Numbered from the stretch's first letter, positions 5,542 through 62,160 are shown. The stretch: DNA of 64,000 bases from Gammaproteobacteria bacterium (GCA_029881255.1 JAOUMY010000005.1:192479-256478), one strand, 5' to 3'. The notes: generated from the sequence alone by a model not told the origin. Program-made: numbers and translations.

Positions 5542-5543
5542 GT

Positions 5544-33408: not shown

Positions 33409-34161
33409 ATGGATATGGACAACAGCATGCTCAAACGCTACAGCCGCCATATTATGTTGCCTCAGATGGATTACGAGGGTCAGGAGACCCTGCTTAATTC
33501 ACGCGTACTGATTATGGGCGCCGGTGGCTTGGGTTCGCCCGTTGCTATGTATCTCGCCAGTAGCGGTATAGGCCACATCACGATTTGTGATTTCGATGTG
33601 GTGGAAGAACATAATCTACAAAGACAGATTATGCATGGTGAAGCTGACGTAGGAACCTTGAAGGTTGATTCGGCCAAGCACACTTTGCAATCACTTAATC
33701 GTCACATCCGTGTGGAGACTATTAACCAGAAACTCGAAGGTGATGCATTACGCACTGAGATCGAAAAGGCTGACGTTGTACTCGATACCACTGATAATTT
33801 CACCGCACGCTTCGCCGCAAACAAATATTGCGTAGAAACTAAAACACCCTTGGTATCCGGCTCAGTAATAAGAATGGAAGGGCAGATCTCAACATTTGAT
33901 CCACGACGTGATGACAGCCCCTGCTATCACTGTTTGTATAAAGATACGGGCGACCTCGACGAAACCTGTACATCAAATGGCGTATTGGCACCGGCGGTCG
34001 GTATCGTTGGTGGCATTCAAGCCACCGAAGCAATCAAGGTCTTATGCGGCTTCGGCGAGCCTTTGATTGGGCGTTTATTATTGATGGATGTGTTAACCAT
34101 GGAATGGCGCACGATGAAACTGAAAAAAGACCCCGGCTGTCCTGTTTGTGGCGCAAAATAA
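33409..34161 (+). CDS. moeB: MoeB/ThiF-family adenylyltransferase
   Basis: A 250-residue E1-like enzyme that adenylates the C-terminal Gly of a sulfur carrier, most likely MoaD here. It has SRHIMLPQMDYEGQETL, the nucleotide loop IMGAGGLGSPVA, the arginine finger region HNLQRQ, Asp130 in DTTDNFTAR, a CxxC pair (Cys172/175 in PCYHCLY) and a second CPVC (Cys244/247) that bind zinc, and Cys187 in DETCTSNG. There is no rhodanese domain. A ThiF role in thiamine synthesis is the alternative; the moa neighbourhood favours MoeB. Confidence 0.9.
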   Translation: MDMDNSMLKRYSRHIMLPQMDYEGQETLLNSRVLIMGAGGLGSPVAMYLASSGIGHITICDFDVVEEHNLQRQIMHGEADVGTLKVDSAKHTLQSLNRHIRVETINQKLEGDALRTEIEKADVVLDTTDNFTARFAANKYCVETKTPLVSGSVIRMEGQISTFDPRRDDSPCYHCLYKDTGDLDETCTSNGVLAPAVGIVGGIQATEAIKVLCGFGEPLIGRLLLMDVLTMEWRTMKLKKDPGCPVCGAK

Positions 34162-34220
34162 TTTATTTACACGCCAACACACGCACGAATTAAAACCATT
34201 AGCCGCTATCGTGACGCGAA

Positions 34221-34982
34221 TTAGTCTCGCAGGGATTTGAACGCGGATATCGCCCACATAAGTGTTAAAAAGGTGAATATGCTCATCACCAACAAGCCTT
34301 GTCCAAAGGCTGCATAGTCTGTCTCCGGTGATAGTATTGCGCGTACTGCGCTAGTACCGTATTCCACCGGATTTATTTTGGCGACATATTTAATCCAGGT
34401 CGGCATGAAGTTCTCGGGTACCATTGCGCTAGAGAAAAACATCAATGGTAGCGTCATCATATTACCCATGATGACCAGAGGTTCTTCCCTTTGCAGCATG
34501 ATGGCCAATCCATTGGATATACTTGCAAACGCAACACCCAACAGCAATATCACCAACATCGCCAAGGTGATGTTAATCAAATTAGCACTGGTATCTGCGC
34601 CCAATGCCCAAGCAGCAATTAATACGATAAACGCCTGAACCACCACTTGCACTGCCGAGTGTAGTACACGGCTTAAAACTATGGCGCTTCGCGATACCGG
34701 CGAGACGAGCATTTTATCAACCGTACCCGCACTGATTTCGCGTAGCAGGCTCACGCCAGACCAGGACGATCCGAACAAAACCGTCATGATCAAAACACCT
34801 GGGACAAAGTATGTGATATAGGTTCCGCCGGGGAAGTCTGGCAATTTCGCAAAACTGGCGAACAAAGAGCCAAAAATAAACAGCCACAACAAAGGCTGTA
34901 TCAAAGAGAACAATGACCACAACGGCATACGTCGGGTGATGACCATATATTTGTTAAACAGGTGCCAGGTATCTGCAAGCAT
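34221..34982 (-). CDS. ABC-2 type permease (DrrB-like)
   Basis: A 253-residue inner membrane protein with six predicted helices. The conserved segment LLREISAGTVDKMLVSPVSRSAIVLSRVL and MLQREEPLVIMGNMMTLPLMFFSSAMVP identify the ABC-2 family of daunorubicin-type exporters. It is the second gene after its ATPase, 21 bases apart. The substrate is unknown: relatives export drugs, lipids or polysaccharides. Confidence 0.92.
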   Translation of the reverse strand: MLADTWHLFNKYMVITRRMPLWSLFSLIQPLLWLFIFGSLFASFAKLPDFPGGTYITYFVPGVLIMTVLFGSSWSGVSLLREISAGTVDKMLVSPVSRSAIVLSRVLHSAVQVVVQAFIVLIAAWALGADTSANLINITLAMLVILLLGVAFASISNGLAIMLQREEPLVIMGNMMTLPLMFFSSAMVPENFMPTWIKYVAKINPVEYGTSAVRAILSPETDYAAFGQGLLVMSIFTFLTLMWAISAFKSLRD

Positions 34983-35003
34983 GCAATCTTCTCTCGCTAC
35001 ACG

Positions 35004-36515
35004 TTACTTGGATTTATCTGAGGAATCATTCGACCAATCGCCTTTCTTAGGCCACGGTTGCTCCTCTGTCGATTTGTCATCAGACCATTGTTGGTTCGGC
35101 CACTGTTGATCTTCACCAGACTTGTCTGATAACTGTTTATCAGACCAGGAAGCGTGTTCACCAGCGGCATTTTTGCCCTGCCATTGGCTGGGGTCAGGCC
35201 AGTTTTGCGAATCGTTTTCATTTCTTGTGCTGTTTACCTGAGCAACTCCGTCGTCTTGCCGAGGCCTTGAGGACATCTCTGCACTCTCGGGGCTTGCTTC
35301 ACCAGCTTGCCACTCTCCTTGATTTGGCCACTCCGGAGGCTCGCCCGAATTCTTCGAATTCTGCCATTGCGCTTGTTGGGGCCACTGTTGCTCGCTATCG
35401 TTCGATTCACTTTCCTGACCGATGCCCTGCTGCCACTTCTTCCAATCCTGGCTATTGTCAGCGCTTTCCTCTTCCTCTGCGCTCTGCCACTTTTGCCATT
35501 GCTTGGCCCACTTGCCGCTACCACCGCCTTTTCCAGCCCACTGGTGCCACCACTCTTCGCCGCCTTCTTCTTTGTCCCCCTGCAGACTACTGCCGGTATG
35601 TTTGATAAACACATCGTCGAGGGTTGGACGAGCGAAGCTGATATTTTTAACCGTGATCCCGGCCCCGGTTGCGGCCTGAATTACCTTGGGTATGGCCTCG
35701 GCACCATTAGTGACATATAAATGGTATTTGTCTGATTCCCAGGTGGCGTCTTTTACATAATCGTGTTGGCGCAATTGCCAACTGAAGTTTTGCATCTCGT
35801 CGCTTTCATCGGCAAACTCCATGGATACCACATCGCCCTGTATCGCGGTTTTGAGGGTTTCAGCGGTATCCAGGGCCTTGATTTCGCCTTGATCGATAAT
35901 CGCGACACGAGAGGAAAGCTTGTCTGCTTCATCGAGGTAATGAGTCGTCAACAATATGGTGAGTCCAAGCTCGATATTGAGTTTCTCGATATAACGCCAC
36001 AGGTTTTGACGGCTCTTGGTATCAAGGCCTAGAGTAGGCTCGTCGAGGAAAAGCACCTTGGGACGGTGCATAAGCGCGGTCGCAATATCCAGTTTGCGTC
36101 GCATCCCGCCTGAGTATGCGGATACCAAGGTATCGAGGTGCCTGCTAAGCTCAAAGTATTCGGCCAGTTCTTCGATGCGCGCCTTGATGTCGCGCTTGGT
36201 CATGCGGTACATCTGACCGTGTAGACGCAGATTTTCTCGTCCGGTCAAAAAATAGTCTATCCCGGTATCCTGGGCCACGTATCCAATGGCCTGACGTACC
36301 AGCTCTGGCTCACGATCCACGTCGTGCCCTGCTATAGTGACACTTCCTTCGTCGAAGCCACTCAGTGTCGTCAGTATGCGTATGGTTGTGCTTTTTCCTG
36401 CGCCATTCGGCCCTAACAAGGCGAGTATTTCGCCATCTTTTATTTCCAGATTCAGATTTTTTACCGCCTGCAAACCCGATTCATAGGTTTTGGACAGGCC
36501 TTGAATATTAATCAT
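35004..36515 (-). CDS. DrrA-like ABC ATPase with a 193-residue Trp-rich C-terminal tail
   Basis: A 503-residue protein. Residues 1-310 are a normal DrrA-type ATPase: Walker A GPNGAGKST, Q-loop YVAQD, signature YSGGMRRKLD, Walker B VLFLDEPTLGLD, H-loop TTHYLDEAD and the C-terminal domain ending ARPTLDDVFIKHTGSS. Residues 311-503 are a hydrophilic low-complexity tail with 19 tryptophans, rich in Q, S, E, N, D, P, G and K. It begins GGEEWWHQWAGKGGG, KWAKQWQKWQ, DWKKWQ, and continues as spaced units such as EWPNQGEW, NWPDPSQW and QQWPNQQW. The ATPase family normally ends near residue 310-330, so this is an added domain. The tail is cytoplasmic. Its function is unknown. The same DWKKWQ core occurs in the RND exporter at 41949-44651. 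Confidence 0.92.
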   Translation of the reverse strand: MINIQGLSKTYESGLQAVKNLNLEIKDGEILALLGPNGAGKSTTIRILTTLSGFDEGSVTIAGHDVDREPELVRQAIGYVAQDTGIDYFLTGRENLRLHGQMYRMTKRDIKARIEELAEYFELSRHLDTLVSAYSGGMRRKLDIATALMHRPKVLFLDEPTLGLDTKSRQNLWRYIEKLNIELGLTILLTTHYLDEADKLSSRVAIIDQGEIKALDTAETLKTAIQGDVVSMEFADESDEMQNFSWQLRQHDYVKDATWESDKYHLYVTNGAEAIPKVIQAATGAGITVKNISFARPTLDDVFIKHTGSSLQGDKEEGGEEWWHQWAGKGGGSGKWAKQWQKWQSAEEEESADNSQDWKKWQQGIGQESESNDSEQQWPQQAQWQNSKNSGEPPEWPNQGEWQAGEASPESAEMSSRPRQDDGVAQVNSTRNENDSQNWPDPSQWQGKNAAGEHASWSDKQLSDKSGEDQQWPNQQWSDDKSTEEQPWPKKGDWSNDSSDKSK

Positions 36516-36601
36516 GCACGCTTAACCAATATTTTGACGACTTCGCCATTATACCGCCCGCACTCCAATTGCAAAGTCAATATCCTAACTATCCGAAATA
36601 C

Positions 36602-36616
36602 GGCCAGTTCTTGGCC
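36602..36616. promoter_or_regulatory. short palindrome upstream of the cytochrome promoter
   Basis: GGCCA and TGGCC are separated by five bases and centred 38 bases before the cytochrome -35 box. It could be an activator site. The arms are short, so chance is not excluded. Confidence 0.3.
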
Positions 36617-36646
36617 AAAATACTGTGGTAAAAACTATGTTTGGGT

Positions 36647-36675
36647 TTGACAGGGTTTATCTGCTCCCGTACATT
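36647..36675 (+). promoter_or_regulatory. sigma-70 promoter of the five-heme cytochrome
   Basis: A perfect -35 box TTGACA (36647-36652) is followed after 17 bases by TACATT (36670-36675), a four-of-six match to the -10 box. Transcription would start near 36682, leaving about 60 bases of leader before the gene. Confidence 0.65.
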
Positions 36676-36749
36676 ACCTTGGTTTCGAATCGGCGCAGCT
36701 TTAAGGTTTAATTGCGCCTCGAAAGGAAAAGAAAGAGCAAGTGAGGGGT

Positions 36750-37985
36750 ATGGAAAAGCGTCGTTTTCGGGGAAGCCGACTATGGTCAGGTGTGCTAGGC
36801 GCCACTGCTGCAGGTCTATTCCTTGGGCCAGTCCTGGCGGACGGGTGGAACGCCTCGCGCGCGCCTAACCAGCCTGATGCGACCTACGAAGACAAAAACG
36901 GCAATACGGCGACCAGATGGGGAGGCATTTCCAATACTCGCCATAACCTCACCATGTCCTACTTGCGCGAAGAGGCACAAGGCATCATGGGGCCTTTTCG
37001 AAATAACTACTACGAAGTCTGTGTTTACTGCCATACACCGCATGGGGCCAATGCGACTGCGGCGGCACCACTGTGGAACCGTACCGTCACTCAACGCACC
37101 TACACGCTTTACAACAATGCCAACAGCCTTGCCGGTGGACAAATGTCCCAACCTGGCCCCAATTCTTTGACTTGTCTATCCTGTCACGATGGGGTTACAG
37201 CTATAGATTCGATTATTAATATGCCTACGCAGCTTGGCGGCGCCTATCGAGCGGGTTATAACGTCAACCAACAAAGCGGTGTAGACGAGTTCTGGCTGGA
37301 CAATTGGGGCGCCGACGGAAACAAATTATTTGAGCAAACAGACAAATATGGTGACCCATTACTTGTTTCTCAACCCAACCCAAATCTGAGCGCCGATCGC
37401 CCTTCTAATGGCGCGGGAACTGGACACTATTCTCTAAACGGCTTTGGTGATAATGGCGCCGGTCCCTGTTTAAGCTGTCACTCAGCAAGCCCGTCCGGCG
37501 GCGCTGGAAATGCCCCCAATTTTGAAGCATTTTTGATCGGAAACCAGGCCAGGGCCCAAACTGGCGGCCTTGATAGTGACGGTTTGCTTGCTTTGGGGAC
37601 AATAGGATCAGCCCGCTTCCTGGCCGATGATCACCCCATTGGTGTTCAGTATCCAAAAGAATTTGGACCTGAAGCAGATTATAAAGAACCCGATATTAAA
37701 AAGACGAAGATCGCTTTTTGGGATCTGAACGATAACCAACACGCCGACCCAAATGAAGTACGTCTATATGACACCGGAGAGGGGTATGAAGTGGAGTGTG
37801 GCTCTTGCCACGATCCTCATGGCGTAGCTGCTGAAGTGGCGGTGGCCGGCGACAAAACCGAGACACATTTCATCCCCAGCTTTCTACGTGTTGGAAGAAG
37901 CGTTACCATTGCTAGCACAGACGGAACTGACACGCTAACCGGAAACACGGGAAGTGATTTGTGTCTCACCTGCCACGCCAAATAG
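36750..37985 (+). CDS. exported pentaheme cytochrome c
   Basis: A 411-residue protein from the ATG at 36750 (a GTG nine bases upstream is possible). The signal peptide runs from MEKRRFRGSRLW to about LADG. Five CxxCH haem sites: CVYCH (about 91), CLSCH (about 142), CLSCH (about 240), CGSCH (about 350) and CLTCH (at the C-terminus). CVYCHTPHG and CGSCHDPHG have the CxxCH(T/D)PHG form common in periplasmic multiheme cytochromes. I do not recognise a named family. Haem would be attached by the ccm system in this window. It is convergent with the TPR gene and single. Confidence 0.92.
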   Translation: MEKRRFRGSRLWSGVLGATAAGLFLGPVLADGWNASRAPNQPDATYEDKNGNTATRWGGISNTRHNLTMSYLREEAQGIMGPFRNNYYEVCVYCHTPHGANATAAAPLWNRTVTQRTYTLYNNANSLAGGQMSQPGPNSLTCLSCHDGVTAIDSIINMPTQLGGAYRAGYNVNQQSGVDEFWLDNWGADGNKLFEQTDKYGDPLLVSQPNPNLSADRPSNGAGTGHYSLNGFGDNGAGPCLSCHSASPSGGAGNAPNFEAFLIGNQARAQTGGLDSDGLLALGTIGSARFLADDHPIGVQYPKEFGPEADYKEPDIKKTKIAFWDLNDNQHADPNEVRLYDTGEGYEVECGSCHDPHGVAAEVAVAGDKTETHFIPSFLRVGRSVTIASTDGTDTLTGNTGSDLCLTCHAK

Positions 37986-38162
37986 TCAGTCTCACGCAAT
38001 TCAACTATTGTACGTAAGAAGATTTACCTGAATTGCCAATCACTTTGAATGGGTTGGCGAGTGAGGGCAAAGCAAAAAAGAACGAACATGCGCAATCGAT
38101 ACAGATTGTGTGTTTGTTTGTAACGTTGAAATCGCTTTCTTGAACTTGCGCAGAGAATACCT

Positions 38163-40973
38163 CTAGAAGTTCATATTGAATCCGCCGCTTAGATTAAGCC
38201 TTGTAACATCCCCCAAAGAAGTACTTTGAAACGTCGCCACGGCTTCGCTAGTTGTTTGCAAACCGGTAGGCAATGAAGACAGATTTTTCTGGAACATCGC
38301 TGAAATATAAAAACTCATGTCCTTAAAGAAATTATAATTGATCGTCGCATTCAAGGTGAGATTCAGATTATTTCGTCGCTTCCCTTCTTTTGAAGCAGAA
38401 TCGGGATTTAAATAGCCGATATATTGGGCATTCGCCATTAGCATTCCGTTTACACCAGGAGAAAGCATGCGATTCAAACCAACAGATACGCTATGCCCGT
38501 TATAAACATAGTCCTTAGAATCAAAGGTAACCAGCTGTCCAGCACCAACAACCGGCACATCTAAACCTGTCAATGGATCACGCCTAACTGAAACATTCTC
38601 TTGAATGACTTTGTTATGCCTGTCCGGCGGTATCCAGTTCACAATCAGCTGATAACCAACACTTGCACCAAAGCCTTTTGCCAAGGCTTGATTCAAGTTG
38701 AAACCGACATTACCGGAGTAGGCGAAATACTTGCTCTCCGCATATGTCTGTATATTTCGTAAACTTCCGCTAATACTCAGTCCCGTTGAGATATTTTCCC
38801 CTTCGTATCCCTCTGGTGCCAGCTTAAATGCTGCCGGTAAAAACAACGTACGGACATCGGTGAATTGTAGATTCCAGCTATTACTTAAATCACCCTCAGT
38901 TTCTAATGATGCCTGATTCTGTTGACCATACTGTATGGTGAAGTTTGCGCGAGGAGTTCCTTTAACGATATTGACTAAATAGTTATTATTCAAATAGCTG
39001 ACCTGGGCTATATGAAGCTGTGAAAAACTAGGCTGCCATATGAGTTTATAACTTAAGTCATCCAATAACGATTGTGAATACAGGACGTTCAGTGACATAT
39101 CGGATCGCACTTCGGGAAACGACGATGCATCGTTCATATTTGCATTACTATCCGCCAGAAAGACATAACTATAGTTATTTGAAAAGCCGCTTAATCGACC
39201 TTCCACCAGACTCAAGCGAACCGTCGCCTCATTTACCACCTCAGCTTCAGCACCGTTGAATATAATTTGCTGATATTCTGAGGCGGCCAACTGATCCAAA
39301 CCCAATTGTTCATACAACTTAGCCAACAATAACCGAACGCGCTGATTTCCTGGGCGTGCCTGCAATATTCGATGAAATGCTCCTGCAGACTCCTCAAGAA
39401 GGCCCTTGCTCTGCTGTATAGTGCCAAGATAGAAGAGTGCTTCTATATTATTAGGCTGATCAGCCACTATCTCTGCAAAAACCTTTTGCGCAGCAGAAAG
39501 CTTTTTCTCTGCCCACAATCCTCTTGCCTTTGTGATACGCCATTTACTGGATGCGATCTTTCCTTCTTCACTATCCTTATCGATTTGAATAATGATTTCA
39601 TATTGTTCAGCTGCCTTGCTTAAATCACCGAGTTGTTCATATACATTAGCAAGATTCGCGCGACCGCGAAGATTTTGTGGATCGTGCCTGATTACAGATT
39701 CAAACTCGATCCTAGCCTCCTCGTATTTACTCTGCTTAATATAAATCAACCCACGATTAAAGCTGGCGCGCACATTACCGGAATAATAGTCCAAGGCTTT
39801 TTTATACTCACGCAAACTCTCTTCCACTTTCCCAGCTTGCAATGCTTCATCCGCTACGGATGTGTGAATAAAGTTCATACGCACGCTGGCTTCTTGGGCG
39901 TATCGACCTTTATCTCTATCAATAATATATTGAAACTGTTCTTTTGCTTCACTGAAGCGTTTGATATCGAGATAGAGGTTACCCAAGTTAAGGCGAGCAG
40001 AAAAGTCATCCGGCGTGACCTTCAAAACTGCATTAAATCCTTTTTCAGCTTGCAACACGTTCCCAAGATTCAGATTTGCTAATGCTATGTTGAAAAACGC
40101 CTCCGTTCTTTTTGGGTCGAGATTGACTACTTCCTGAAAAATTTTGACCGCATTGGACCAGTCCTGCCGGCGCAGATACTCTCGTCCATTGATAATTCCG
40201 TATCGGATTTTGGCTTCTAAAGTGATATTAGGATCGGCGTTAATATCGATTATGATCTTAAAATGCCGCATTGCATCATCGGGTCGATTAGAGCGTTCAT
40301 AAATATTACCCAGATTCATATGACCAATAATATGACGAGGCTCGATAGAGACGAGTTTCTTAAACGTTGTTTCCGCTTCTTCAATGCGATTGAGAAATAC
40401 ATAGGTTGCGCCAATGTTCGCAAGTATTATGGGATCTTCTGGATAGTCCAATTGCAAACCGTTGAAAACCAGCAAAGCCGCGCTCATCTCCCCCTTTTTT
40501 GCAAGTGCCTGACCCGTCGCCAATGACAATCGCTTTTCAGCCTCCTTCACGCCACTATCGCGACTACCGGTATCAACCAAGCGTTGGTATTCTTCTAAGG
40601 CCTCGTTCCGCTTGCCTATGCGCTCCAGAAAGGCCCCAAGATTTAGACTGTAATGAGAACTCAAGGGATCTAGCTGGGTAGCTCGTAACAGATTTTTTTG
40701 TGCCCCTTCAGCATCTTTCTTAAAGATAGACAATTGCCCAAGACGAAAATAGGTCTCGGGGTGATTCGGATTCAACACCAAAATTTTATTATAGATTTGC
40801 AAAGCGCTATCAAAATCTTTGAGGTTCATTGCCGCCGCACCTTCCTCCAAGAGGCGCTTAACAGTCTCGTCATCTTCTGCAAACACAGGAAGAGACACGA
40901 GCACACTCATCATCACTAAGAGACGAACTGCCGTGACCATCCTCTGTATAGCGTTGTTAACCGTGTAAGGCAT
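38163..40973 (-). CDS. TPR protein with predicted C-terminal outer membrane barrel
   Basis: 936 residues from the ATG at 40973; a GTG at 41003 is less likely because a normal signal peptide starts at the ATG (MPYTVNNAIQRMVTAVRLL ... PVFAED). Residues about 40-590 are tandem tetratricopeptide repeats (for example LNPNHPETYFRLGQLSIFKKD, NPNHPETY, IEALFYLGTIQQSKG). Residues about 600-936 alternate as beta strands (LSYKLIWQPSFSQLHIA, VGFNLNQ, MSFYISAMFQKN) and end GFNMNF with terminal Phe. This architecture resembles outer membrane export or surface-display proteins that pair periplasmic TPRs with a barrel, as in exopolysaccharide secretion. It is the last gene of the RND cluster. Confidence 0.85.
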   Translation of the reverse strand: MPYTVNNAIQRMVTAVRLLVMMSVLVSLPVFAEDDETVKRLLEEGAAAMNLKDFDSALQIYNKILVLNPNHPETYFRLGQLSIFKKDAEGAQKNLLRATQLDPLSSHYSLNLGAFLERIGKRNEALEEYQRLVDTGSRDSGVKEAEKRLSLATGQALAKKGEMSAALLVFNGLQLDYPEDPIILANIGATYVFLNRIEEAETTFKKLVSIEPRHIIGHMNLGNIYERSNRPDDAMRHFKIIIDINADPNITLEAKIRYGIINGREYLRRQDWSNAVKIFQEVVNLDPKRTEAFFNIALANLNLGNVLQAEKGFNAVLKVTPDDFSARLNLGNLYLDIKRFSEAKEQFQYIIDRDKGRYAQEASVRMNFIHTSVADEALQAGKVEESLREYKKALDYYSGNVRASFNRGLIYIKQSKYEEARIEFESVIRHDPQNLRGRANLANVYEQLGDLSKAAEQYEIIIQIDKDSEEGKIASSKWRITKARGLWAEKKLSAAQKVFAEIVADQPNNIEALFYLGTIQQSKGLLEESAGAFHRILQARPGNQRVRLLLAKLYEQLGLDQLAASEYQQIIFNGAEAEVVNEATVRLSLVEGRLSGFSNNYSYVFLADSNANMNDASSFPEVRSDMSLNVLYSQSLLDDLSYKLIWQPSFSQLHIAQVSYLNNNYLVNIVKGTPRANFTIQYGQQNQASLETEGDLSNSWNLQFTDVRTLFLPAAFKLAPEGYEGENISTGLSISGSLRNIQTYAESKYFAYSGNVGFNLNQALAKGFGASVGYQLIVNWIPPDRHNKVIQENVSVRRDPLTGLDVPVVGAGQLVTFDSKDYVYNGHSVSVGLNRMLSPGVNGMLMANAQYIGYLNPDSASKEGKRRNNLNLTLNATINYNFFKDMSFYISAMFQKNLSSLPTGLQTTSEAVATFQSTSLGDVTRLNLSGGFNMNF

Positions 40974-41031
40974 AGGTACCCGCTTAAAAAATACGGCCTG
41001 CACTCTTTTGACCAGACAAATCGAATTCCAA

Positions 41032-41949
41032 TCAGAATCCGATATTAAACTTCAGCTGCGCGCGCCATCCATCCAACCGAAAAGTTGCAAGTCGCCGATT
41101 AACGCCATCAGGTAGTAAATATTCGATATAGCCGTCTCTATTTACCAACATCGGAGTAGGCGCGGACAACAAGCGGTCACCGTTATTAAAATCATGTTTG
41201 GTTGTGATGCCTTTTAGCGTCGCATTCTTCACGCCAAGAGCATAGGAACCCGACAAACTGATGGAAAACCGATCGGCCAACCTGGCCTCAGCACCTAGGC
41301 CAAACTGCAATAAAAGCAATCCCGTTGCTTGTGTTTCAAAGACTATATTCCGACTGAATCCTGCGGGCGCACCGGAAACGAAAAATATCTTGTGGACATC
41401 TTTGTAATCAATATCAAACAAATCATGTATTGCGGTATCTATATACAGATTAAATCGGCTACTACGCTCGAGAAAGTAGCGTCGCAACCCAACATAATAT
41501 TGGGTATAGGAAAATTTTGCCCTTCGTGAATAGAGTGCTTCATTCTCGGGCTCACCCTGAAGTGGAAAAGTTACATCCAGGTTGGGAGAAAAGGAATTGA
41601 CTTCCCAAATTCCAAAACCGATAACAAAGTCATTTTTCTTCCCAAAATTTCGACGAATTTCCAAGCCGGCTTCCCACCACACAGGAACCGGGTCAAGTGG
41701 ATTCGTAATGTTAAACCCTTTAGGCGGATATGAGGATGCGCCTTCAATATCTTCTGGCAGATCTGTCGTTATTTCCGACTGCCCTACCAGTGGCATTTTA
41801 AATAAGCCATCGTTGAGCGCTTTTAACTGCGGTCCACTGCGCCCCATAGTCGGCGTGAATATCCACCCTGGCTCATCAAGACGCGCATGCGATGACAACG
41901 GCAGAGAAAACAATAGTAAGATATACCAAGGTGTTCTTTTTCTAAACAT
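41032..41949 (-). CDS. predicted outer membrane protein
   Basis: A 305-residue protein with signal peptide (LPLSSHA, residue 22) and strand-rich sequence ending LKFNIGF, with terminal Phe. I recognise no family. Its ATG overlaps the RND stop (TAATG), so translation is coupled to the exporter. The conserved GWIFTPTMGRSGP and FRLDGWRAQLKFNIGF suggest a barrel of about 12 strands, which is an estimate from pattern only. Confidence 0.75.
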   Translation of the reverse strand: MFRKRTPWYILLLFSLPLSSHARLDEPGWIFTPTMGRSGPQLKALNDGLFKMPLVGQSEITTDLPEDIEGASSYPPKGFNITNPLDPVPVWWEAGLEIRRNFGKKNDFVIGFGIWEVNSFSPNLDVTFPLQGEPENEALYSRRAKFSYTQYYVGLRRYFLERSSRFNLYIDTAIHDLFDIDYKDVHKIFFVSGAPAGFSRNIVFETQATGLLLLQFGLGAEARLADRFSISLSGSYALGVKNATLKGITTKHDFNNGDRLLSAPTPMLVNRDGYIEYLLPDGVNRRLATFRLDGWRAQLKFNIGF

Positions 41950-44651
41950 TACGCCCCCCGTTTATCCCCAGGTCTGTAATAAGAAAACAATGCGGGTAGC
42001 ACAACTAACGCTACTAAACAACTCACCAACATATATGCCGTAACGAAATAGCCCAGTTTCACATGTGGAGGAAACTGCGACAGAAATAAGACGGCAAAAC
42101 CGGCGCTAACTACTGTGGCATTAAATACAATTGTTCTGCCTGTGGTACGCAAGGTCGCTGCTGTAGCGTCGATATGATTCAGGCCTTGTTGTCGTTCGCT
42201 AATGTATCGATAAACATAATGCACCGCATAGTCGACACCCACACCGATAGCAATACCCGCTGCCAAGGCCGTTGAGACATCCATCGGAATCGAAAAAAGA
42301 CCCGCAAAACCAGCGACAATCAGCGTAGACAGGGTCACTGGGATAACAACGTACAACCCCGCAATCAAGGAAAGAAAGGCTAGCGCCGCCACCACAAAAA
42401 TCACCAACTTGGAGAATACAATCGCCGAAGTCTGACTTCCGATTAGCAAATCTGCCCAGATATAGGAATTGTTTGCAGAACCAGCATAATTAATACTGAC
42501 TCCGGCACCTTCGAACTCTCTTGCAACATAGGTCTTTACTTCATCGATAATATGTTTCAGATGCTTTGTATAATCAGTCTGTATCGCTATCGTTACCAGA
42601 CCTTGCTTGTAATCGAAGTCCACCACCTGGTCCAATTGATCCGGACGCCCTGAAACAGAAAACAGAAACAGGTATTCAGCGATCAGATCGCGTGACTCCG
42701 GCAACTTGTTGTAAGCCGGATTATCTTCGTGCAGCGACTTGTTCATGTTCTTAAGATAATTCACCACCGACAAGGAATCACCCACATAGGGCAATTCCGC
42801 CACAAAGGTTTGCAAACCTTCAATCCTGCGTAGCAATTCAGGATCTTTAAAAGCATCTTTCTGTTGCGATTCGATAACCACATTAAGAAACACGGTGCCG
42901 GAGAATTTTTCATTCAACTTCTGAGTTGCAACATAGACGTCGCTGTCTTCACGAAAATCACTCAACCAGCTGGAATTGACAAATAGCATTGATGAGCCAA
43001 AACCTGCGACCAATACCAAAACTGCGAGCACGGCGCCCAGAACCGACTTACGCTCATTGACCTGTTCACCGATGCGTATCAACAACCATGAGAGTCGACT
43101 CTGTTCTTCATAAACACGTTGCGCGCGTCGTCTTGCATAGAAATTCGCTACACGTGGTTTCATGAGAGTCAATACCGCGGGTATAAACATAATCGAAATT
43201 AACCAGCTCAGTATGATCCCTATCATCGCAAATACACCGAAAATTCTAAAAGGCGGCATATCAGCAAAGAAAAGGGCCGCGAAACCTATGGCCGTTGTGA
43301 GTGACGTCATGATTAGCGGCGCGCCCAGGCGGCTAACTGCCTCGCTTACAATGAGCCGGCTGTCACGGTGAGGATCCTTCAAGACTGCATCAAAATAGGC
43401 ACTAAGTAAGTGTACTGAATCGCCAATGCCGACGGCTACGAGTATGACTGGCAACATAGTGGAAATCGTATACAAAGGAACATCAAATAACGTCTGTAAC
43501 CCCATAGTCCAGACGATCGCAAAACCCATTACCACAATGGGTAGCAACATTCCTCGACCGGAACGAAACATAACCAGCAACACCAAAGCCATCACGGCCA
43601 CAACCATGGGTATCATGATTTGCATGTCTTCCAGTGCGTAGGTGCCGGAAGAGACTTCGATAACGGGTCGGCCTGCGAGATAAAACGTGTCTTTGATGTC
43701 TTTCGGGGCAGAGACATTTTCTGGTGTTTGCGTAGCAGACGTATCAGACGACAGAGGCCCTGCTTTTTTAATATTCTTCGCTGTTGAGTTGGAAAATTCG
43801 CTGGCAGCCCATTCTTCTTCCTCTTCTTCTTTGGCTTTAGTTGAATTCCACCACTTTAGTTGCTCTTCAGACCACTGTGTTTCACTCGATTTTTCAACAA
43901 CTGGCTTTTCCTCGACGGCCTTGGTCTCAGTTGTTTCACCTTGTTGCTGCTTCCACCACTTGACCTGGTCTTCACTCCACTGACCATCGTCTCCTTTCTT
44001 TTCCTTTTGCCATTTCTTCCAATCCCCGCTGCCATCACCCCAGTTACCACTCCATCCACCGCTATCTTCCCCGGTTTCTGCACCAAGAATGCCTTTCACC
44101 TGCCAATACGTCATCCAGCGATTGACCATGCCCTCTTTTAGCTTGGCGCGCACCATAGCCGCCTTACCATCGGCAGAAACAATGTTACCGACAAACAAGT
44201 CTGCATTGTCGAAAACAAGTTTTTTCAGTGCATCAATTTCCGCTTGAGTCTGCGGCAAACGTTCCATTAAAGGAATCGAACCAATCGTTTTTTCATCGCC
44301 AGTAAATCGTGTAGCCGTTGCAATCGAAGCCACATCACTTGAACGCGTTGCCTGAACGCCAGGAAGAGCAGCCAGTTTTTCCGATAGCCGTTTAATGCGT
44401 GTCAGCGTTTCTATGTTAAATACGGTATCCGGATTTTCAATTCCAATGATGACGGTATCTCGTACACCAAACGCATCGTCAACTTTTTCATCATAGATAA
44501 TCGCTTCATGTCCTTTGGGTAAGTAGACTCGAGCATCAGTCTCCCAACGCAACTTATCTAGCTGGCTTCCAAAGAAAGCAGTAAACACGAGAATAGTAGC
44601 TATCGTAGCTCGTGGAAATTTGACACCTGTAAGATAGAAATTCTTTAGCAT
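41949..44651 (-). CDS. RND-superfamily exporter (MMPL type) with Trp-rich periplasmic insert
   Basis: A 900-residue protein with the two-halves layout of MMPL/RND exporters. Helix 1 is at about 14-30. A periplasmic domain follows to about 345. Helices 2-6 lie within about 345-500, then a second periplasmic domain (about 540-720) and the last five helices. GIGDSVHLLSAYFD and AIGVGVDYAVHYVYR are the conserved proton-relay region helices. Residues about 191-320 are a hydrophilic insert with 11 tryptophans: GGWSGNWGDGSGDWKKWQ, then two related units QWSEDQVKWWKQQ and QWSEEQLKWWNS, and a run of Glu. The insert lies in the periplasm by topology. RND relatives export lipids, hopanoids or hydrophobic compounds. 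AAGG precedes the ATG. Confidence 0.92.
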   Translation of the reverse strand: MLKNFYLTGVKFPRATIATILVFTAFFGSQLDKLRWETDARVYLPKGHEAIIYDEKVDDAFGVRDTVIIGIENPDTVFNIETLTRIKRLSEKLAALPGVQATRSSDVASIATATRFTGDEKTIGSIPLMERLPQTQAEIDALKKLVFDNADLFVGNIVSADGKAAMVRAKLKEGMVNRWMTYWQVKGILGAETGEDSGGWSGNWGDGSGDWKKWQKEKKGDDGQWSEDQVKWWKQQQGETTETKAVEEKPVVEKSSETQWSEEQLKWWNSTKAKEEEEEEWAASEFSNSTAKNIKKAGPLSSDTSATQTPENVSAPKDIKDTFYLAGRPVIEVSSGTYALEDMQIMIPMVVAVMALVLLVMFRSGRGMLLPIVVMGFAIVWTMGLQTLFDVPLYTISTMLPVILVAVGIGDSVHLLSAYFDAVLKDPHRDSRLIVSEAVSRLGAPLIMTSLTTAIGFAALFFADMPPFRIFGVFAMIGIILSWLISIMFIPAVLTLMKPRVANFYARRRAQRVYEEQSRLSWLLIRIGEQVNERKSVLGAVLAVLVLVAGFGSSMLFVNSSWLSDFREDSDVYVATQKLNEKFSGTVFLNVVIESQQKDAFKDPELLRRIEGLQTFVAELPYVGDSLSVVNYLKNMNKSLHEDNPAYNKLPESRDLIAEYLFLFSVSGRPDQLDQVVDFDYKQGLVTIAIQTDYTKHLKHIIDEVKTYVAREFEGAGVSINYAGSANNSYIWADLLIGSQTSAIVFSKLVIFVVAALAFLSLIAGLYVVIPVTLSTLIVAGFAGLFSIPMDVSTALAAGIAIGVGVDYAVHYVYRYISERQQGLNHIDATAATLRTTGRTIVFNATVVSAGFAVLFLSQFPPHVKLGYFVTAYMLVSCLVALVVLPALFSYYRPGDKRGA

Positions 44652-44673: not shown

Positions 44674-46143
44674 CTAAAAGTCGTACTTGAATTCGAGAAA
44701 CACTCGTCGATTGTCGCGAAAGTTTCCGAGAAACTGTGCCCGTTGTTCGACATCCGTCAAACCGCCTGGATCAATTGTCGAGAATGCGCGCCCGAACTGT
44801 GTACGATTACCCGTAAATAGATCAAGGCCAAACATCACCTGAAATTGATTTGTCAGATTAAATGTAATCTTTGGTTTGATGTAGTCTTCCTGAAATTCGA
44901 TTAAGCGTATGTAGAGCAACGTAAAGACTGCCGATTGTTTTTGCAGTGGTTTACGTAGAAAGACATTAAATGTGGTATCGAATCGTCTGCTGAGAATGTC
45001 GGGACTGTAGTCCAATATCATCCATTGCGAAATAGAGGGAGAAAAGTCGGCTCCCCAAAGCGAAAAATCGTAGCCGATACCCCAGCGAATGTGGTCACGT
45101 TGAACTTCGCCATCGCTGACTAAAAAACCGTCTTCATAGTGATCTTCGATTGCAAAATATTTCCCCGTCACATATGCAAATTCGGCCTTCAGAATATCTC
45201 CACCAATCTCCCGCGTAGCGGTTAAACCATACATCGTCATTCGGGTGTAGGTGGGAAGAATCGCCAACTCATTACTGGTTTCCACGCTGGTGACATCATC
45301 GATAGAAATAATACGAAATGTTGCAGGATAGTCATCCCACGTATAAAAATAACTCAGCGCCAGGTCTGTCTCGTTTATCCTGGTACTTAGACGTACGCCA
45401 AACTCCGAATACATGGGATCAAAATTGTTCGGTTGCGTCGTGGAAGGTAAAACCTGAAACAACTCCCACTCAGAACCTTTTACCGCGGGTTGGTGAAATT
45501 TCAATTCAGGAATCCACAGTAGTTGCAGACTGGCGTTCTCACCGTAGTAGTCGGCCTTTAAGGTCCAAAGCGGAATGCGATAGTCAAGGAGACCGGGAAG
45601 TATTAGTTCGCGAAAATCCATCGGATTAATTTCATCGACAATACGCATCCCTTCAAGAACGCCCCAGATCACATATTGCTTTCCGATGCGAAGATCGAGA
45701 TTTTTGATGTATAAATCGAGATAGAGTTCGCGCAACTCGGCCCTCTTTTGATCTCTTTCCTGACCAGCAATGATCAATTCAACAAAGGTTAAAACCTCTT
45801 TTTCTTCGCGTACATATCGCGCTGCGATAGTCTCTTCGTCAAACACATCGTACACGCTGTCATAATATCCCCAGCCGGTCGCGACGAATTTGGACCACTT
45901 GCCGATAGAAACTTCATTTTTTAGCTGAAGAATATTTCTGATTTTTGTGTAGATACGCGGTTCGTCAAAACGATAGGCCGTTTCATTTTTAACATAGCCT
46001 CCAAAATCATATTTAATCAGATTATTTTTTTCAGTCGGTACATCAATACTGCTGGGAAACTCAAAGTCGAGATCCAAACCAGGTGTTGCCGCTTCAACAC
46101 CCAGTGAAACAAGATAAAGTAGCAGTACTAATAATCTATGCAT
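44674..46143 (-). CDS. DUF1302-like outer membrane protein
   Basis: A 489-residue protein with signal peptide (SLGVEAATP) and many amphipathic strands, ending RRVFLEFKYDF. The segment IGKQYVIWGVLEGMRIVDEINPMDFRELILPG matches the conserved region of DUF1302-like barrels, which are often encoded beside RND exporters. It overlaps the regulator gene by eight bases and precedes the RND gene by 22 bases. It is a good candidate for the outer membrane channel or receptor of this exporter. Confidence 0.82.
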   Translation of the reverse strand: MHRLLVLLLYLVSLGVEAATPGLDLDFEFPSSIDVPTEKNNLIKYDFGGYVKNETAYRFDEPRIYTKIRNILQLKNEVSIGKWSKFVATGWGYYDSVYDVFDEETIAARYVREEKEVLTFVELIIAGQERDQKRAELRELYLDLYIKNLDLRIGKQYVIWGVLEGMRIVDEINPMDFRELILPGLLDYRIPLWTLKADYYGENASLQLLWIPELKFHQPAVKGSEWELFQVLPSTTQPNNFDPMYSEFGVRLSTRINETDLALSYFYTWDDYPATFRIISIDDVTSVETSNELAILPTYTRMTMYGLTATREIGGDILKAEFAYVTGKYFAIEDHYEDGFLVSDGEVQRDHIRWGIGYDFSLWGADFSPSISQWMILDYSPDILSRRFDTTFNVFLRKPLQKQSAVFTLLYIRLIEFQEDYIKPKITFNLTNQFQVMFGLDLFTGNRTQFGRAFSTIDPGGLTDVEQRAQFLGNFRDNRRVFLEFKYDF

Positions 46144-46591
46144 TGTGACCGTTTACTGCATTCTTCTGGCAACTTTCACAAACAATTGGTGTTTGACTGC
46201 TGGACTGACAAATACCCATTTCAGCTCGCTCGCCAACTTGCATAGGCTCACCACAACTATCACAAGAACAACGGCGATTAAGCACAATAGTCTTCCAGGC
46301 AATCACATCCGCGAACTCGTTTTTAGACTCGACTTGAGGTGTATTCTTTTTGATCAAATCAAGCTTGATGGATGGTTGCTCCTCCAGGAATACATCTTCC
46401 AACACCCGCCTTAACAACAATGAGACGGGGATCCCCAATTCATCAGCCCGTTGTATCACCTTTGTTTTCAAAGCCTTGGGGACGCGAGCACCGAGAAACT
46501 CTTCCTTACGGCGTAGCGCAACTTTCATCGCCTTGTCACGCATCAGATTAGCCTTTTCAGCTGGGTGGAACACTTTGGCGGATTTTTGCAT
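46136..46591 (-). CDS. ribbon-helix-helix regulator with C-terminal cysteine zinc-ribbon
   Basis: A 151-residue protein. Residues about 33-70 match a ribbon-helix-helix DNA-binding fold (EFLGARVPKALKTKVIQRADELGIPVSLLLRRVLEDVF). The C-terminus has six cysteines (108, 110, 113, 128, 138, 141) in RRCSCDSCGEPMQVGERAEMG and IVCESC, a likely zinc-ribbon. AGGAG is six bases before the ATG. It is the first gene of the RND operon and probably represses it. The direct repeat upstream could be its operator. The RHH plus zinc-ribbon fusion is not one I can name. Confidence 0.8.
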   Translation of the reverse strand: MQKSAKVFHPAEKANLMRDKAMKVALRRKEEFLGARVPKALKTKVIQRADELGIPVSLLLRRVLEDVFLEEQPSIKLDLIKKNTPQVESKNEFADVIAWKTIVLNRRCSCDSCGEPMQVGERAEMGICQSSSQTPIVCESCQKNAVNGHNA

Positions 46592-54121: not shown

Positions 54122-54613
54122 CTATCTTTGCCTGTTCAGCATAGGACGTCGTTGTCTGGGACTAGACTGGCGCAAACGCTGTCGTATTTGTTGCCGCTGT
54201 GCCGGAGTCATGGATTGCCATTTTTGTCGAAGTTGTTGTCGCTTGCTTTCTGGTAATGTCTGAAACCACTTCGACCGCCGCTGTATTGACTGTTGCTTTT
54301 CGGCTGGCATATTCTTATATAACCTAAAACGTTCTCTTAATACTTGGCGTTCTGTCGGCGACATTTCCTGCCATTGTTGAAAACGCTGCTTAAATACCCT
54401 CTTCTGATCGCCATCCATTTTCTGCCATTGTTCTACACCTCTAATCAATCGTTGTTGTTTTTCTGCGGGGTATTGATTCCACTGTTCTTTTGCCGCACTC
54501 AACATTTTCTGGTGCGCAGGCGACAATGCCTCCCAAGGCGTGACGGTATCTTCCGCCAACAAAGGGAAACTCAAACAGATCAAAATTAGCAGGTTCACGA
54601 TTCGATTATTCAT
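54122..54613 (-). CDS. DUF3106 protein
   Basis: A 163-residue protein from the ATG at 54613; AGGA is eight bases upstream and the ATG overlaps the previous gene's last codons. A signal peptide (LLILICLSFPLLAED) precedes repeated helical units rich in Q, R, W and K: EQWNQYPAEKQQRLI, VEQWQKMDGDQKRV, FQQWQEMSPTERQVLRERF, KWQSMTPAQRQQIRQRL. This Trp/Gln repeat is characteristic of DUF3106. These Trp repeats are unlike the transporter inserts elsewhere in the window. The family is regularly found beside an ECF sigma and a DUF3619 gene. Confidence 0.88.
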   Translation of the reverse strand: MNNRIVNLLILICLSFPLLAEDTVTPWEALSPAHQKMLSAAKEQWNQYPAEKQQRLIRGVEQWQKMDGDQKRVFKQRFQQWQEMSPTERQVLRERFRLYKNMPAEKQQSIQRRSKWFQTLPESKRQQLRQKWQSMTPAQRQQIRQRLRQSSPRQRRPMLNRQR

Positions 54614-56449: not shown

Positions 56450-57757
56450 TTATCTGACTTCGGAATTGATAATAACGCTAATTCCAGAGCTGGAATTGAC
56501 GCGTATTTCATCGCTAAAGCCTTCGAGATCCCCGGGTTGCGACATGGCATTACCCGTCTTCGAGATACGTGCTCCAACGATTACGCGACCAAACCCTGAT
56601 AGCTTCATACTCGGGTTCATCGCAAGCGAATCGTCTAGTTTAAACTTGAACGGAAGATCTTTTACTTGTTTGCGAACGATAGCCAACGGCATACGTGGCC
56701 CGTCAGCAGCGCGGGCAAATATAAAAACGGTGTCATCAGCACTGGCCTTACTGGCGATGGCGCCACCCAGCATGACAGTTCCATTTACTTCTTTAATTCC
56801 ACCACCTGCAGCCGCCACTGAATTCCCGCTCGCAACTCCACCCTGTTGCATCATCGGCGGTGTCATCATACTGGGCGGAGCAGAGGGAGCCATGCCAAGA
56901 CGGGAACGGACCTCGTCAATATTCGCAGCTATCTGCTGTGCCTCGTTCGATCCTGGAGGCAACACCTTAATCAATCGCTCCCAAAACCCCAGCGCGGATT
57001 TAAAGTCACCTTGCTGGTATGCCGCAGTACCAATTAACCACAAGCCCTGCACATGATTCGGATCAAGCTCAATCGCCTTCTCCAGCAAACTAATGGCCTT
57101 AGGCGTGATCTGACGACCGGATGCCATTGCAACGGTATCAGCGTAAGCCGCCAATGCATCGGGGACCTTGTCACCACCCATTTGCATCAACTTTTCGAAA
57201 ACATCGGCAGCCTCTTTGAAGCGTTTCTGGAATTTATACGAACGCGCCAGCATAAACCAACCCTCCGGGTCATTTGGCTCCTGTTCCAGACGCTGCTCCA
57301 GCTGTGCAATCATATTGTTAATAGTCTGCTGCTGGTGTTCTGCGGTATTTACCTCGGGTTCGGCACTGTCGGGATCTAGTCCGCGTGCTCCCGCTCCCCA
57401 GGTGCCATAGAGGATAATGGCCAAGACAGGAACCACGGCTATCAGTGCCATGGCAGACATTTTGGCCGATGTAGGCGTAACCGCTTCTGCTGTTTCGTCA
57501 CCTTCTTCGAGACGCTTCATGTCTTCAAGGAAGTTGCGTTCGATATCCGCCTTGGCGCTATCGTATTGCTCCTGGCTGATGACCTCGTTTTTCAGGTCAT
57601 TTTCCAACTCTTCAAACTGATCCTTATAAACATTGACCGTTAAATCTTTACGATCGACAAGTTTTGAATCTTGCGGACGCTTTTTCAATAAAGGTGGCAA
57701 TAGGAATGCTAACGCAATAGCGATAAAGACTACCGCGATAAACCAGAAAGCTATCAT
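56450..57757 (-). CDS. ccmI: cytochrome c biogenesis protein CcmI (TPR)
   Basis: A 435-residue inner membrane protein. Helix 1 at about 3-22, a cytoplasmic segment with DRKDLTVNVYKDQFEELENDLKN, helix 2 at about 100-118, then periplasmic TPRs (about 150-280: EQEPNDPEGWFMLARSYKFQ, ELDPNHVQGLWLIGTAAYQQGDF). The C-terminal domain (about 325-430) is the CcmI-type beta domain of gammaproteobacteria (VNGTVMLGGAIASK, FVFARAADGPRMPLAI-like pattern). It presents apocytochrome c to the CcmFH haem lyase. It is the last gene of the operon. Confidence 0.94.
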   Translation of the reverse strand: MIAFWFIAVVFIAIALAFLLPPLLKKRPQDSKLVDRKDLTVNVYKDQFEELENDLKNEVISQEQYDSAKADIERNFLEDMKRLEEGDETAEAVTPTSAKMSAMALIAVVPVLAIILYGTWGAGARGLDPDSAEPEVNTAEHQQQTINNMIAQLEQRLEQEPNDPEGWFMLARSYKFQKRFKEAADVFEKLMQMGGDKVPDALAAYADTVAMASGRQITPKAISLLEKAIELDPNHVQGLWLIGTAAYQQGDFKSALGFWERLIKVLPPGSNEAQQIAANIDEVRSRLGMAPSAPPSMMTPPMMQQGGVASGNSVAAAGGGIKEVNGTVMLGGAIASKASADDTVFIFARAADGPRMPLAIVRKQVKDLPFKFKLDDSLAMNPSMKLSGFGRVIVGARISKTGNAMSQPGDLEGFSDEIRVNSSSGISVIINSEVR

Positions 57758-57775
57758 GTGCTAATCTTCCCCGTC

Positions 57776-58231
57776 TTATTTCTTGAGTAGTTCTTCGACG
57801 CGCGCTGTATCTTCCGCGCTGAGCGGCACATCATCAGCCGCCACCAGACGGCGCTTACGCAATTGAACAAACAGCATGGTCACGCCAATGATGAGTAGAA
57901 TAAAAGGACCAATCCAGAGGAACATCGTGGATGACTTGAAGGCTGGTTTATAGCGGATAAAGTCACCATAACGTGCGACCATATAGTCAACGATTTCATT
58001 ATCTGTTTTACCCTGCTTCATCTGCTCGCGCACGACACGCTTCAGGTCGTCAGCAAGTCCAGCTTTGGAATCGTATATAGTCTGGTTCTGACACTTCTGA
58101 CAACGCAGTTCAGAGGTAAGCGCCTTATAGCGTTCCTCGTCGATTGCAGAATCAAGTAAAGGCACAGCGTCCTTAGCAAAAACCGGCAGGGCCAACAGAC
58201 CTAGCAGGATGGCTACAACGGCACTCTTCAT
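57776..58231 (-). CDS. ccmH: cytochrome c maturation protein CcmH
   Basis: A 151-residue protein with signal peptide and one C-terminal membrane helix (about 103-122). The redox motif is LRCQKCQN (Cys44, Cys47), and VDYMVARYGDFIRYKPAFK is also typical. It reduces apocytochrome cysteines together with CcmG. It overlaps ccmG by four bases. Confidence 0.95.
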   Translation of the reverse strand: MKSAVVAILLGLLALPVFAKDAVPLLDSAIDEERYKALTSELRCQKCQNQTIYDSKAGLADDLKRVVREQMKQGKTDNEIVDYMVARYGDFIRYKPAFKSSTMFLWIGPFILLIIGVTMLFVQLRKRRLVAADDVPLSAEDTARVEELLKK

Positions 58232-58752
58232 CCTTCCAGCTCCTTAATCTTGGGCTTCAAAATTGTCTCCCAATCCTGACGGGAAACAGGACCGACATGT
58301 TTGTAACGAATCACACCTTCTTTATCGATAAGAAAGGTTTCGGGAACACCGTATACACCGTAGTCGATTCCCACATTACCGGCCATGTCAGAGACACTAA
58401 GCATGTAGGGATCACCAAGCTGACGCAACCAGGTCATGGCATCGTTTGGTTTGTCTTTATAGTTCAAGCCTATCATCGGCACTTCACCCTTGCGGGCTAT
58501 TTCCATAAACAGAGGGTGCTCGGAACGACAGGCACCACACCAGGAGGCCCATACATTTAGCAGCCACACCTTGCCTTTCATTTCCTCATTGGCGAATTGC
58601 ATGTCGGCCTTGTGCAATTGGGGAAGATTAAATGCCGGTGCGGGTTTATCGAGCAAGGCAGACGGGAGTATCTGCGGGTCTTTGCCGAGACCAATATAGA
58701 AGACCACGACCAGGCCAACAAAAACTAGCAATGGCGCGATAAATCGTAACAT
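58228..58752 (-). CDS. ccmG: thiol:disulfide oxidoreductase CcmG (DsbE)
   Basis: A 174-residue thioredoxin-like protein with an N-terminal membrane anchor (about 4-21). The active site is WCGAC (Cys72, Cys75) in LLNVWASWCGACRSEHP; the conserved GVYGVPETFLIDKEG cis-proline region is present. It supplies reductant for haem attachment. The GA dipeptide between the cysteines differs from the usual EP/PT of CcmG. Its ATG overlaps the ccmF stop. Confidence 0.94.
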   Translation of the reverse strand: MLRFIAPLLVFVGLVVVFYIGLGKDPQILPSALLDKPAPAFNLPQLHKADMQFANEEMKGKVWLLNVWASWCGACRSEHPLFMEIARKGEVPMIGLNYKDKPNDAMTWLRQLGDPYMLSVSDMAGNVGIDYGVYGVPETFLIDKEGVIRYKHVGPVSRQDWETILKPKIKELEG

Positions 58753-60755: not shown

Positions 60756-61234
60756 TACAAAGCACCTCCATTAGGCATTTCGCTTTGTCCTAATTGTTGT
60801 TTGTTCATGTTCTTTCCTTTCTCCAGAGCCTCAGCTACTTCAGGCGGCATGTATTCTTCATCGTGTTTAGCCAGTACTTCGCTGGCAGAAAACAAACCGG
60901 TGGATTTATCGAGCTGGCCCTGCGCCACTACACCCTGACCCTCGCGGAAGAGATCAGGGAGGATGCCTTTGTATGTAACGCGGATACGCTGGTGGTTGTC
61001 AGTCACCCAGAAATACGTCGTCAGACCATCATCTTCTCGCTCAAGTGTTCCTTTCTCAACCATGCCACCAAGACGGAAGTCTCTCTCTACGGGCACCTTG
61101 CCCGCAAGCACATCCGAGGGGCTGAAAAAGAACACCATATTGCTGTTGAATACGTTTAGCAGCAACGCTGTGACGATACCAAGTGCGGCGATCCCACCTG
61201 CGACAAATGCCAGTCGTTTGTGTCTAGGTTTCAT
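60755..61234 (-). CDS. ccmE: haem chaperone CcmE
   Basis: A 159-residue periplasmic haem carrier anchored by one N-terminal helix (about 9-27). The haem-binding His is in LAKHDEEYMP (His124, with Tyr128 as HxxxY). YFFFSPSDVL-like VFFFSPSDVLAGK and RLGGMVEKGTLERE are family landmarks. Confidence 0.96.
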   Translation of the reverse strand: MKPRHKRLAFVAGGIAALGIVTALLLNVFNSNMVFFFSPSDVLAGKVPVERDFRLGGMVEKGTLEREDDGLTTYFWVTDNHQRIRVTYKGILPDLFREGQGVVAQGQLDKSTGLFSASEVLAKHDEEYMPPEVAEALEKGKNMNKQQLGQSEMPNGGAL

Positions 61235-61241
61235 TTACATC

Positions 61242-62150: not shown

Positions 62151-62160
62151 AGAAAAACCG

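Follow-up and report, generated by a model that had tools for sequence, protein, structure and literature searches.

Tryptophan-rich arms with common short motifs in an RND exporter and a co-inherited ABC ATPase of Gammaproteobacteria

In the AmeABCD system of Castellaniella defragrans, the HAE3-type RND protein AmeD is encoded with the DUF1302 outer-membrane protein AmeA, and a role in envelope export was proposed (PMC6394551). In periplasmic domain 2 of MmpL5, an outward-reaching coiled-coil insert of 196 aa is required for efflux (PMC12501195). During cellulose export, BcsB, part of the inner-membrane complex, holds the N-terminal TPR region of the outer-membrane barrel protein BcsC (PMC11379886), and Trp-acidic peptides bind to the concave groove of the TPR domains in kinesin light chain (PMC6214655). 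We analysed a 64,000-nucleotide stretch of a Gammaproteobacteria bacterium (GCA_029881255.1, JAOUMY010000005.1:192479-256478; hereafter the window) in which an RND exporter gene and an ABC ATPase gene about 7 kb from it each encode a long Trp-rich segment (Table 1). A preliminary description of this DNA had proposed that the two segments are copies of a mobile module shared by two unrelated envelope transporters.

The RND protein matched Pfam MMPL in two stretches corresponding to its two halves (1.1e-42), and its 12-TM fold with two periplasmic porter domains (Pfam, AF2, Foldseek) places it in the HAE3/MMPL group of the RND superfamily. It scored below the curated NCBIfam cut-offs for both HAE3 (TIGR00921; 1.3e-68, 231.8 bits, cut-off 351.9) and HpnN (TIGR03480; 5.8e-28, 97.4 bits, cut-off 751.85), and by these models it is a relative of the two groups rather than a canonical member. 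Its AF2 model matched MmpL4/5 most closely in the PDB, with MmpL3, NPC1 and HpnN further down (Foldseek). The model, built from a shallow alignment of five sequences, has pLDDT < 50 at residues 195-318 (43698-44069) and the RND fold elsewhere. The Trp-rich segment around these residues (191-320), which we call the RND arm, lies in periplasmic loop 1, between a helix of the porter domain and the strand leading into TM2. As the preliminary description had claimed, it holds 11 Trp, the word DWKKWQ and two QWSE(D/E)Q(V/L)KWW units, and the loop, bracketed by TM1 (13-29) and TM2 (from 328) in the AF2 model, is predicted by homology to be periplasmic. The arm is polar and net acidic, with 29 acidic residues to 18 Lys.

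Table 1. Features of the window, with coordinates counted from its first nucleotide
Feature	Coordinates	Strand	Basis
ABC-2 type permease that partners the ATPase	34221..34982	-	Pfam ABC2_membrane 7.1e-32
DrrA-type ABC ATPase, 503 aa	35004..36515	-	NCBIfam drrA 4.8e-100, residues 9-308
C-terminal Trp-rich tail of the ATPase (193 residues, 311-503), 19 Trp	35007..35585	-	Sequence, orthologs
DWKKWQ motif of the ABC tail (within DWKKWQQG)	35430..35447	-	Sequence
Opening stretch of the ABC tail, near-invariant among orthologs, EEWWHQWAGKGGGSGKWAKQWQ	35493..35558	-	Ortholog comparison
TPR solenoid and predicted outer-membrane barrel protein, 946 aa	38163..41003	-	Pfam TPR, AF2
Predicted outer-membrane protein, 305 aa, no family, C-terminal Phe	41032..41949	-	Conserved beside RND
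RND exporter (MMPL/HAE3-like), 900 aa, 12-TM fold	41949..44651	-	Pfam MMPL, HAE3 model, AF2/Foldseek
Trp-rich RND insert, residues 191-320, 11 Trp	43692..44081	-	Sequence, AF2, orthologs
QWSEEQLKWW, unit 2 of the RND insert	43848..43877	-	Sequence
QWSEDQVKWW, unit 1 of the RND insert	43953..43982	-	Sequence
DWKKWQ motif of the RND insert	44007..44024	-	Sequence
DUF1302 outer-membrane protein	44674..46143	-	Pfam DUF1302 2.7e-15
Small CopG-like protein with Cys-rich C-terminus; its gene opens the conserved cluster	46136..46591	-	Pfam CopG_antitoxin 0.0096, below cut-off

The ABC ATPase is of the DrrA type, scoring 334.7 bits against the drrA model (cut-off 312.45) and encoded next to an ABC-2 permease. 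Its Trp-rich tail follows the cytoplasmic ATPase domain and is, by homology, predicted to be cytoplasmic, as had been proposed. Judged by its composition the tail is probably disordered, and it too is polar and net acidic (38 acidic residues to 19 Lys and Arg). The ABC tails begin with a 22-residue stretch matching the near-invariant (D/E)EWWxxWAGKGGGxKWxKxW, after which they diverge.

The usual gene order in carriers is CopG-like, DUF1302, RND, 305-aa outer-membrane protein and TPR-barrel, then ABC permease and ATPase, with the CopG-like gene kept in most clusters. A TPR gene was found near the RND gene in 28 of the 29 neighbourhoods from other genomes, the remaining contig being too short. 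It directly follows the 305-aa gene in all except genome G313, in which it stands on the other side of DUF1302. An AF2 model of the TPR-barrel protein, made with a shallow alignment of three sequences, has 31 helices at residues 45-603 and strands at 633-944, the barrel part at lower confidence. Foldseek matched this protein only with TPR parts of other proteins.

The window also departs from its relatives in arrangement. Within 33409-41003, the permease, ATPase and cytochrome genes form a block that is reversed with respect to the RND cluster; the prevailing order among family relatives is TPR-barrel(+), ABC permease(-), ABC ATPase(-), cytochrome(+), moeB(-). The cytochrome is a multiheme c-type protein with CXXCH motifs (36741-37985). 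Family members whose neighbourhood is intact have it next to the ABC gene, and it was not seen in the clusters of other families. Genes of the cytochrome c maturation type, among them a 672-aa frame with WGGWWFWDPVEN, occupy 56453-62829; such genes adjoin the RND cluster in several relatives, and here they lie about 10 kb off with OprB, a chemoreceptor and other genes between. With these genes nearby we considered heme handling by the Trp-rich arms, and dropped it because neither arm has more than a very few His or Cys residues.

The RND orthologs of other genomes, 29 in nine families of Gammaproteobacteria and 52-62% identical over matched parts, all carried a Trp-rich insert at the identical point, between a helix ending in ..YFQIKGI and the strand FYLAGRPVIE. 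With this genome included, the inserts ranged from 44 to 318 aa and from 4 to 20 Trp, and Trp made up 7.5% of the inserts vs 1.1% of the remainder of the protein. Relatives at about 28-37% identity, including those from other classes of the phylum, had no insert, the helix running straight into the strand; 14 loci from other classes and the relatives L019 and L047 had 0-1 Trp per 50 residues ahead of the conserved GxP. The term "inserted" was therefore apt insofar as these relatives lack the segment, but the insert is old, defining a subfamily and confined to it in the sample examined. The named relatives that carry it are uncultured Gammaproteobacteria.

The ABC tail was equally constant. All 28 orthologs from other genomes with an intact end were Trp-rich there, and the 29 tails that include this genome's measured 95-337 aa with 9-33 Trp (9.1% Trp).

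We searched 369 genomes spread over the class, taking RND orthologs at E <= 3e-201, well separated from a paralog of 35% identity at about 1e-107, and ABC orthologs at E <= 5.4e-126. Of these genomes 23 had both the RND and the ABC ortholog, 345 had neither, and one (G315) had only the ABC gene. In G315 (L136, G315:C139; 91% complete) we found an RND paralog and no RND gene with the Trp insert, which may reflect an assembly gap. Most carriers have the two genes as neighbours; in f37, f75 and G313 the ABC pair is present on a contig separate from the RND gene. To call the transporters unrelated, as had been done, thus misses that they occur together even when unlinked. Gene trees of the RND and ABC cores recovered nearly all families, so both genes are inherited vertically and common descent explains much of the co-occurrence; the 23 cases amount to far fewer than 23 independent events, since carriers may share the pair by ancestry.

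Both arms change quickly in sequence, through substitutions and the expansion of short units, and are constrained all the same, with Trp kept. In aligned relatives Trp was retained at 90% of positions vs 59% for other residues in the RND arm and 67% in the ABC arm; with Trp unweighted in the alignment the figures were 69 vs 58 (RND) and 81 vs 66 (ABC). In pairs for which it could be computed, arm dN/dS was about 0.06-0.27, generally somewhat above the cores and well under 1. Neutral expansion of low-complexity sequence that is merely tolerated in loops would account for the fast change in length and sequence and for the short internal repeats. We consider it highly improbable, given the preferential retention of Trp, the dN/dS below 0.3, the presence of an arm in every ortholog and the lack of any other such segment in the third of the genome that we scanned.

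Two loci have long arms with repeats. The 318-residue insert of L087 (G002; RND open frame 4604-7885) alternates W(x)GNxWV and F(x)GNxWV repeats, with Phe in place of the first Trp in some units. The ABC tail of L148/L151 (G092:C41:14528-15403) is 337 residues long, and its 33 Trp stand in tandem W[ST]xEE..W units; just downstream of it lie more such units and two stops, which suggests recent repeat expansion and decay.

The scan of this genome for Trp-rich segments covered six frames and 4682 open segments over 1.66 Mb. Hydrophilic segments with at least 6 Trp per 50 residues were the RND insert and the ABC tail only; the next best had 5 Trp per 50 residues and resembled ordinary folded proteins. 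A genome-wide habit of Trp-rich segments was thereby ruled out over the 1.66 Mb. A search of the 369 genomes for a third protein with WxGNxWV or W[ST]PEEM units gave no convincing case, with queries insensitive enough to miss known W[ST]xEE carriers in f22. One unit-like match, in contig C4 of G000 (519-aa frame, DDWQSTWTEEQQQQWQQ), is solitary and sits in a folded-looking protein, and we took it as chance. Regular Trp spacing is also seen in a protein at 54356-54535 of the window (QWNQYPAEKQQRLIRGVEQWQKM), which has an apparent likeness to DUF3106-type repeats.

Across lineages the RND and ABC arms draw on a common vocabulary: [DNE]W[KRQ][KRQ]W[QS], W[ST]xEE..W, WxGNxWVxxDGxxK and WP. We counted motifs in 30 RND inserts and 21 ABC tails and took expectations from shuffles of each arm's own composition. 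The pattern [DNE]W[KRQH][KRQH]W[QS] occurred 6 times vs 0.01 expected in the inserts and 11 times vs 0.10 in the tails, and WP 28 vs 10 and 36 vs 16 times, respectively. WP..W was enriched in both sets, and W-x-W was avoided in both (1 vs 14 expected in the inserts, 0 vs 20 in the tails). Units of the form W[ST].E.. or W[ST]xEE..W, like QWSEDQVKWW in the window's RND arm, recur in ABC tails from f22, from f81 and from G004/G011.

Counted over related sequences, the two pools had 23 6-mers in common vs 3.0 expected from shuffles with Trp fixed (the largest of 200 gave 10), 9 7-mers vs 0.26 and 4 8-mers vs 0.04; with G313 left out, the 6-mers were 14 vs 2.9. The best match pairs WQGNEWVNADGTPK of the RND protein of G006 (family f1) with WQGNEWVNPDGTQK of the ABC tail of G313 (family f71), 14-residue units whose best pair is identical except for two residues. 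Trp residues are spaced at +5/+6 in the RND inserts and at +8 in the ABC tails, and the arms are therefore not one identical repeat. The segments are alike beyond chance, and this holds over many genomes.

Common physics could also produce this likeness. In sticker-and-spacer self-association, Trp residues would stick to one another, each arm would cluster its transporter into patches on its own side of the membrane, and the vocabulary would need no specific partner. The spacers are suitably polar (rich in Gly, Gln, Ser, Asn and charge, with aromatic residues), Trp counts differ greatly between orthologs (4-33), and the constraint on length is loose. Physics alone does not demand WxGNxWVxxDGxxK or W[ST]xEE..WW, and the arms have words of up to 8 residues in common beyond composition and Trp positions; the conserved 22-residue start of the ABC tail suggests a defined contact. 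We regard such self-association as a real but clearly less probable alternative to docking on partner proteins.

The word DWKKWQ, which had drawn attention to the pair, is present in the ABC tail as described. Its DNA pattern, GAYTGGAARAARTGGCAR, matched exactly twice in the genome (4.97 Mb), in the RND and ABC genes, and its reversed control did not match at all. A 6-residue word common to this RND/ABC pair arose in 0.7% of composition shuffles, whether or not Trp was held in place, a figure to be read with the caveat that the word was chosen after looking. The preliminary description had stressed near-identical DNA. The two copies are indeed identical at 16 of 18 bases, but this is uninformative because Trp has a single codon and the match follows from the identical residues; at the four residues with a choice of codon (D, K, K, Q), the codon is identical at two. 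The comparison of synonymous codons that had been suggested thus gave no sign of copying in this genome.

Exchange of a module between the RND and ABC genes by recombination, recent or past, would place the same units in both genes and in different lineages, as observed. The G006/G313 units are its strongest case: their codons matched at 45% vs 35% predicted by codon usage, a small excess over non-independent units. That match spans different families, though, in each of which the genes are vertically inherited. Sharing of Trp-containing words between RND and ABC arms was no higher within genomes than between them (permutation p = 0.30); the non-Trp background was slightly closer within genomes (p = 0.001), as genome-wide composition bias would give. 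DWKKWQ itself occurs already in the RND ortholog of G008 and the ABC orthologs of G009 and G190. We rejected a recent copy on three counts (orthologs, permutation test, codons), and exchange at any time seems unlikely. Each segment keeps to its own site in every ortholog examined, and the host genes are inherited by family; the proposal of a shared mobile module was not supported. These sequences agree better with the same words having been gained several times independently, or with exchange that was rare and ancient, than with recent mobility.

The reading that we favour, and hold tentatively, is that the two arms are old and separately maintained, and that each presents common short Trp motifs on polar spacers for multivalent docking, the RND arm to a TPR solenoid. 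Trp side chains would plug into grooves of partner proteins. The RND insert is the sole long periplasmic extension of the pump, and the TPR gene is close to the RND gene; in view of this and of the BcsB-BcsC and kinesin light chain precedents, we propose that the arm hooks the TPR-barrel protein, whose gene is the second one downstream, by its periplasmic TPR solenoid. Such a hook would tether the inner-membrane pump to an outer-membrane exit, and something might then be exported via the TPR-barrel protein. TPR grooves bind many types of peptide, and adjacency of the RND and TPR genes is no proof of contact.

With one arm on either side of the membrane, no one partner could serve both, and here any single-partner account is at its weakest; under multivalent docking the ABC arm would bind a separate cytoplasmic partner. 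Self-association or membrane contact would each serve both sides, the former working equally in either compartment. Trp prefers membrane interfaces, and the arms may dip Trp into the inner-membrane surface, the RND arm from the periplasm and the ABC arm from the cytoplasm, so that one vocabulary would serve the two sides of one membrane. We think this improbable: the arms are polar and net acidic, unlike cationic Trp-rich peptides that bind membranes, and their Trp spacings are not those of a single amphipathic helix.

If docking is correct, the arms may spell one Trp-motif code for two co-inherited exporters, read by separate periplasmic and cytoplasmic receptors, with the same words having evolved repeatedly in unrelated proteins; this is a doubtful extension, and we offer it as speculation. 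A Trp-based code of short motifs for envelope assembly has no description in bacteria that we know of. To our knowledge, the linkage of HAE3-type RND pumps to the outer membrane is also mostly unknown, and a subfamily-defining periplasmic arm encoded beside a TPR-barrel gene is a concrete, testable candidate for it. From the same vocabulary in the ABC arm one would expect a further binding site in the cytoplasm, and the paired arms would make the two exporters one co-inherited set. Our search of the literature gave no match for a Trp-rich or disordered arm in an RND or ABC transporter, which is weak evidence of absence.

As docking signals built from disordered, repeated Trp motifs, the arms resemble the Trp-acidic ligands of kinesin light chain and the GW (AGO-hook) proteins, in which repeated Trp motifs serve as docking signals. 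The likeness is one of principle only, as those arms are eukaryotic and have no homology to the bacterial ones. The TPR-barrel protein is like BcsC and PgaA in having a TPR solenoid followed by a C-terminal barrel (AF2), although it scored far below the models of both (PgaA 48.4 bits, cut-off 366.65; BcsC 51.4 bits, cut-off 858) and, unlike in those systems, no sugar-polymer synthase was noticed beside its gene. As in AmeABCD, an HAE3-type RND protein is encoded with a DUF1302 outer-membrane protein. Here, however, DUF1302 and RND are followed by the 305-aa outer-membrane protein and the TPR-barrel protein and are co-inherited with an ABC exporter, and the scanned RND neighbours gave no Pfam match to the periplasmic partners AmeB and AmeC; the part of the AmeABCD description available mentions no Trp-rich insert (PMC6394551). 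The hopanoid transporter HpnN (PDB 5khn) belongs to the HAE3 family and has a similar fold, but the RND protein lies far under its curated cut-off (97 vs 752 bits). MmpL4 and MmpL5 provide the closest solved fold and likewise bear a long insert in the periplasmic domain. In MmpL5 that insert is a folded coiled coil in domain 2, whereas the RND arm is Trp-rich, predicted to be disordered and placed in periplasmic domain 1, and the disordered Trp hook that we propose would differ both from the coiled-coil insert of MmpL5 and from the folded adaptor of AcrAB-TolC.
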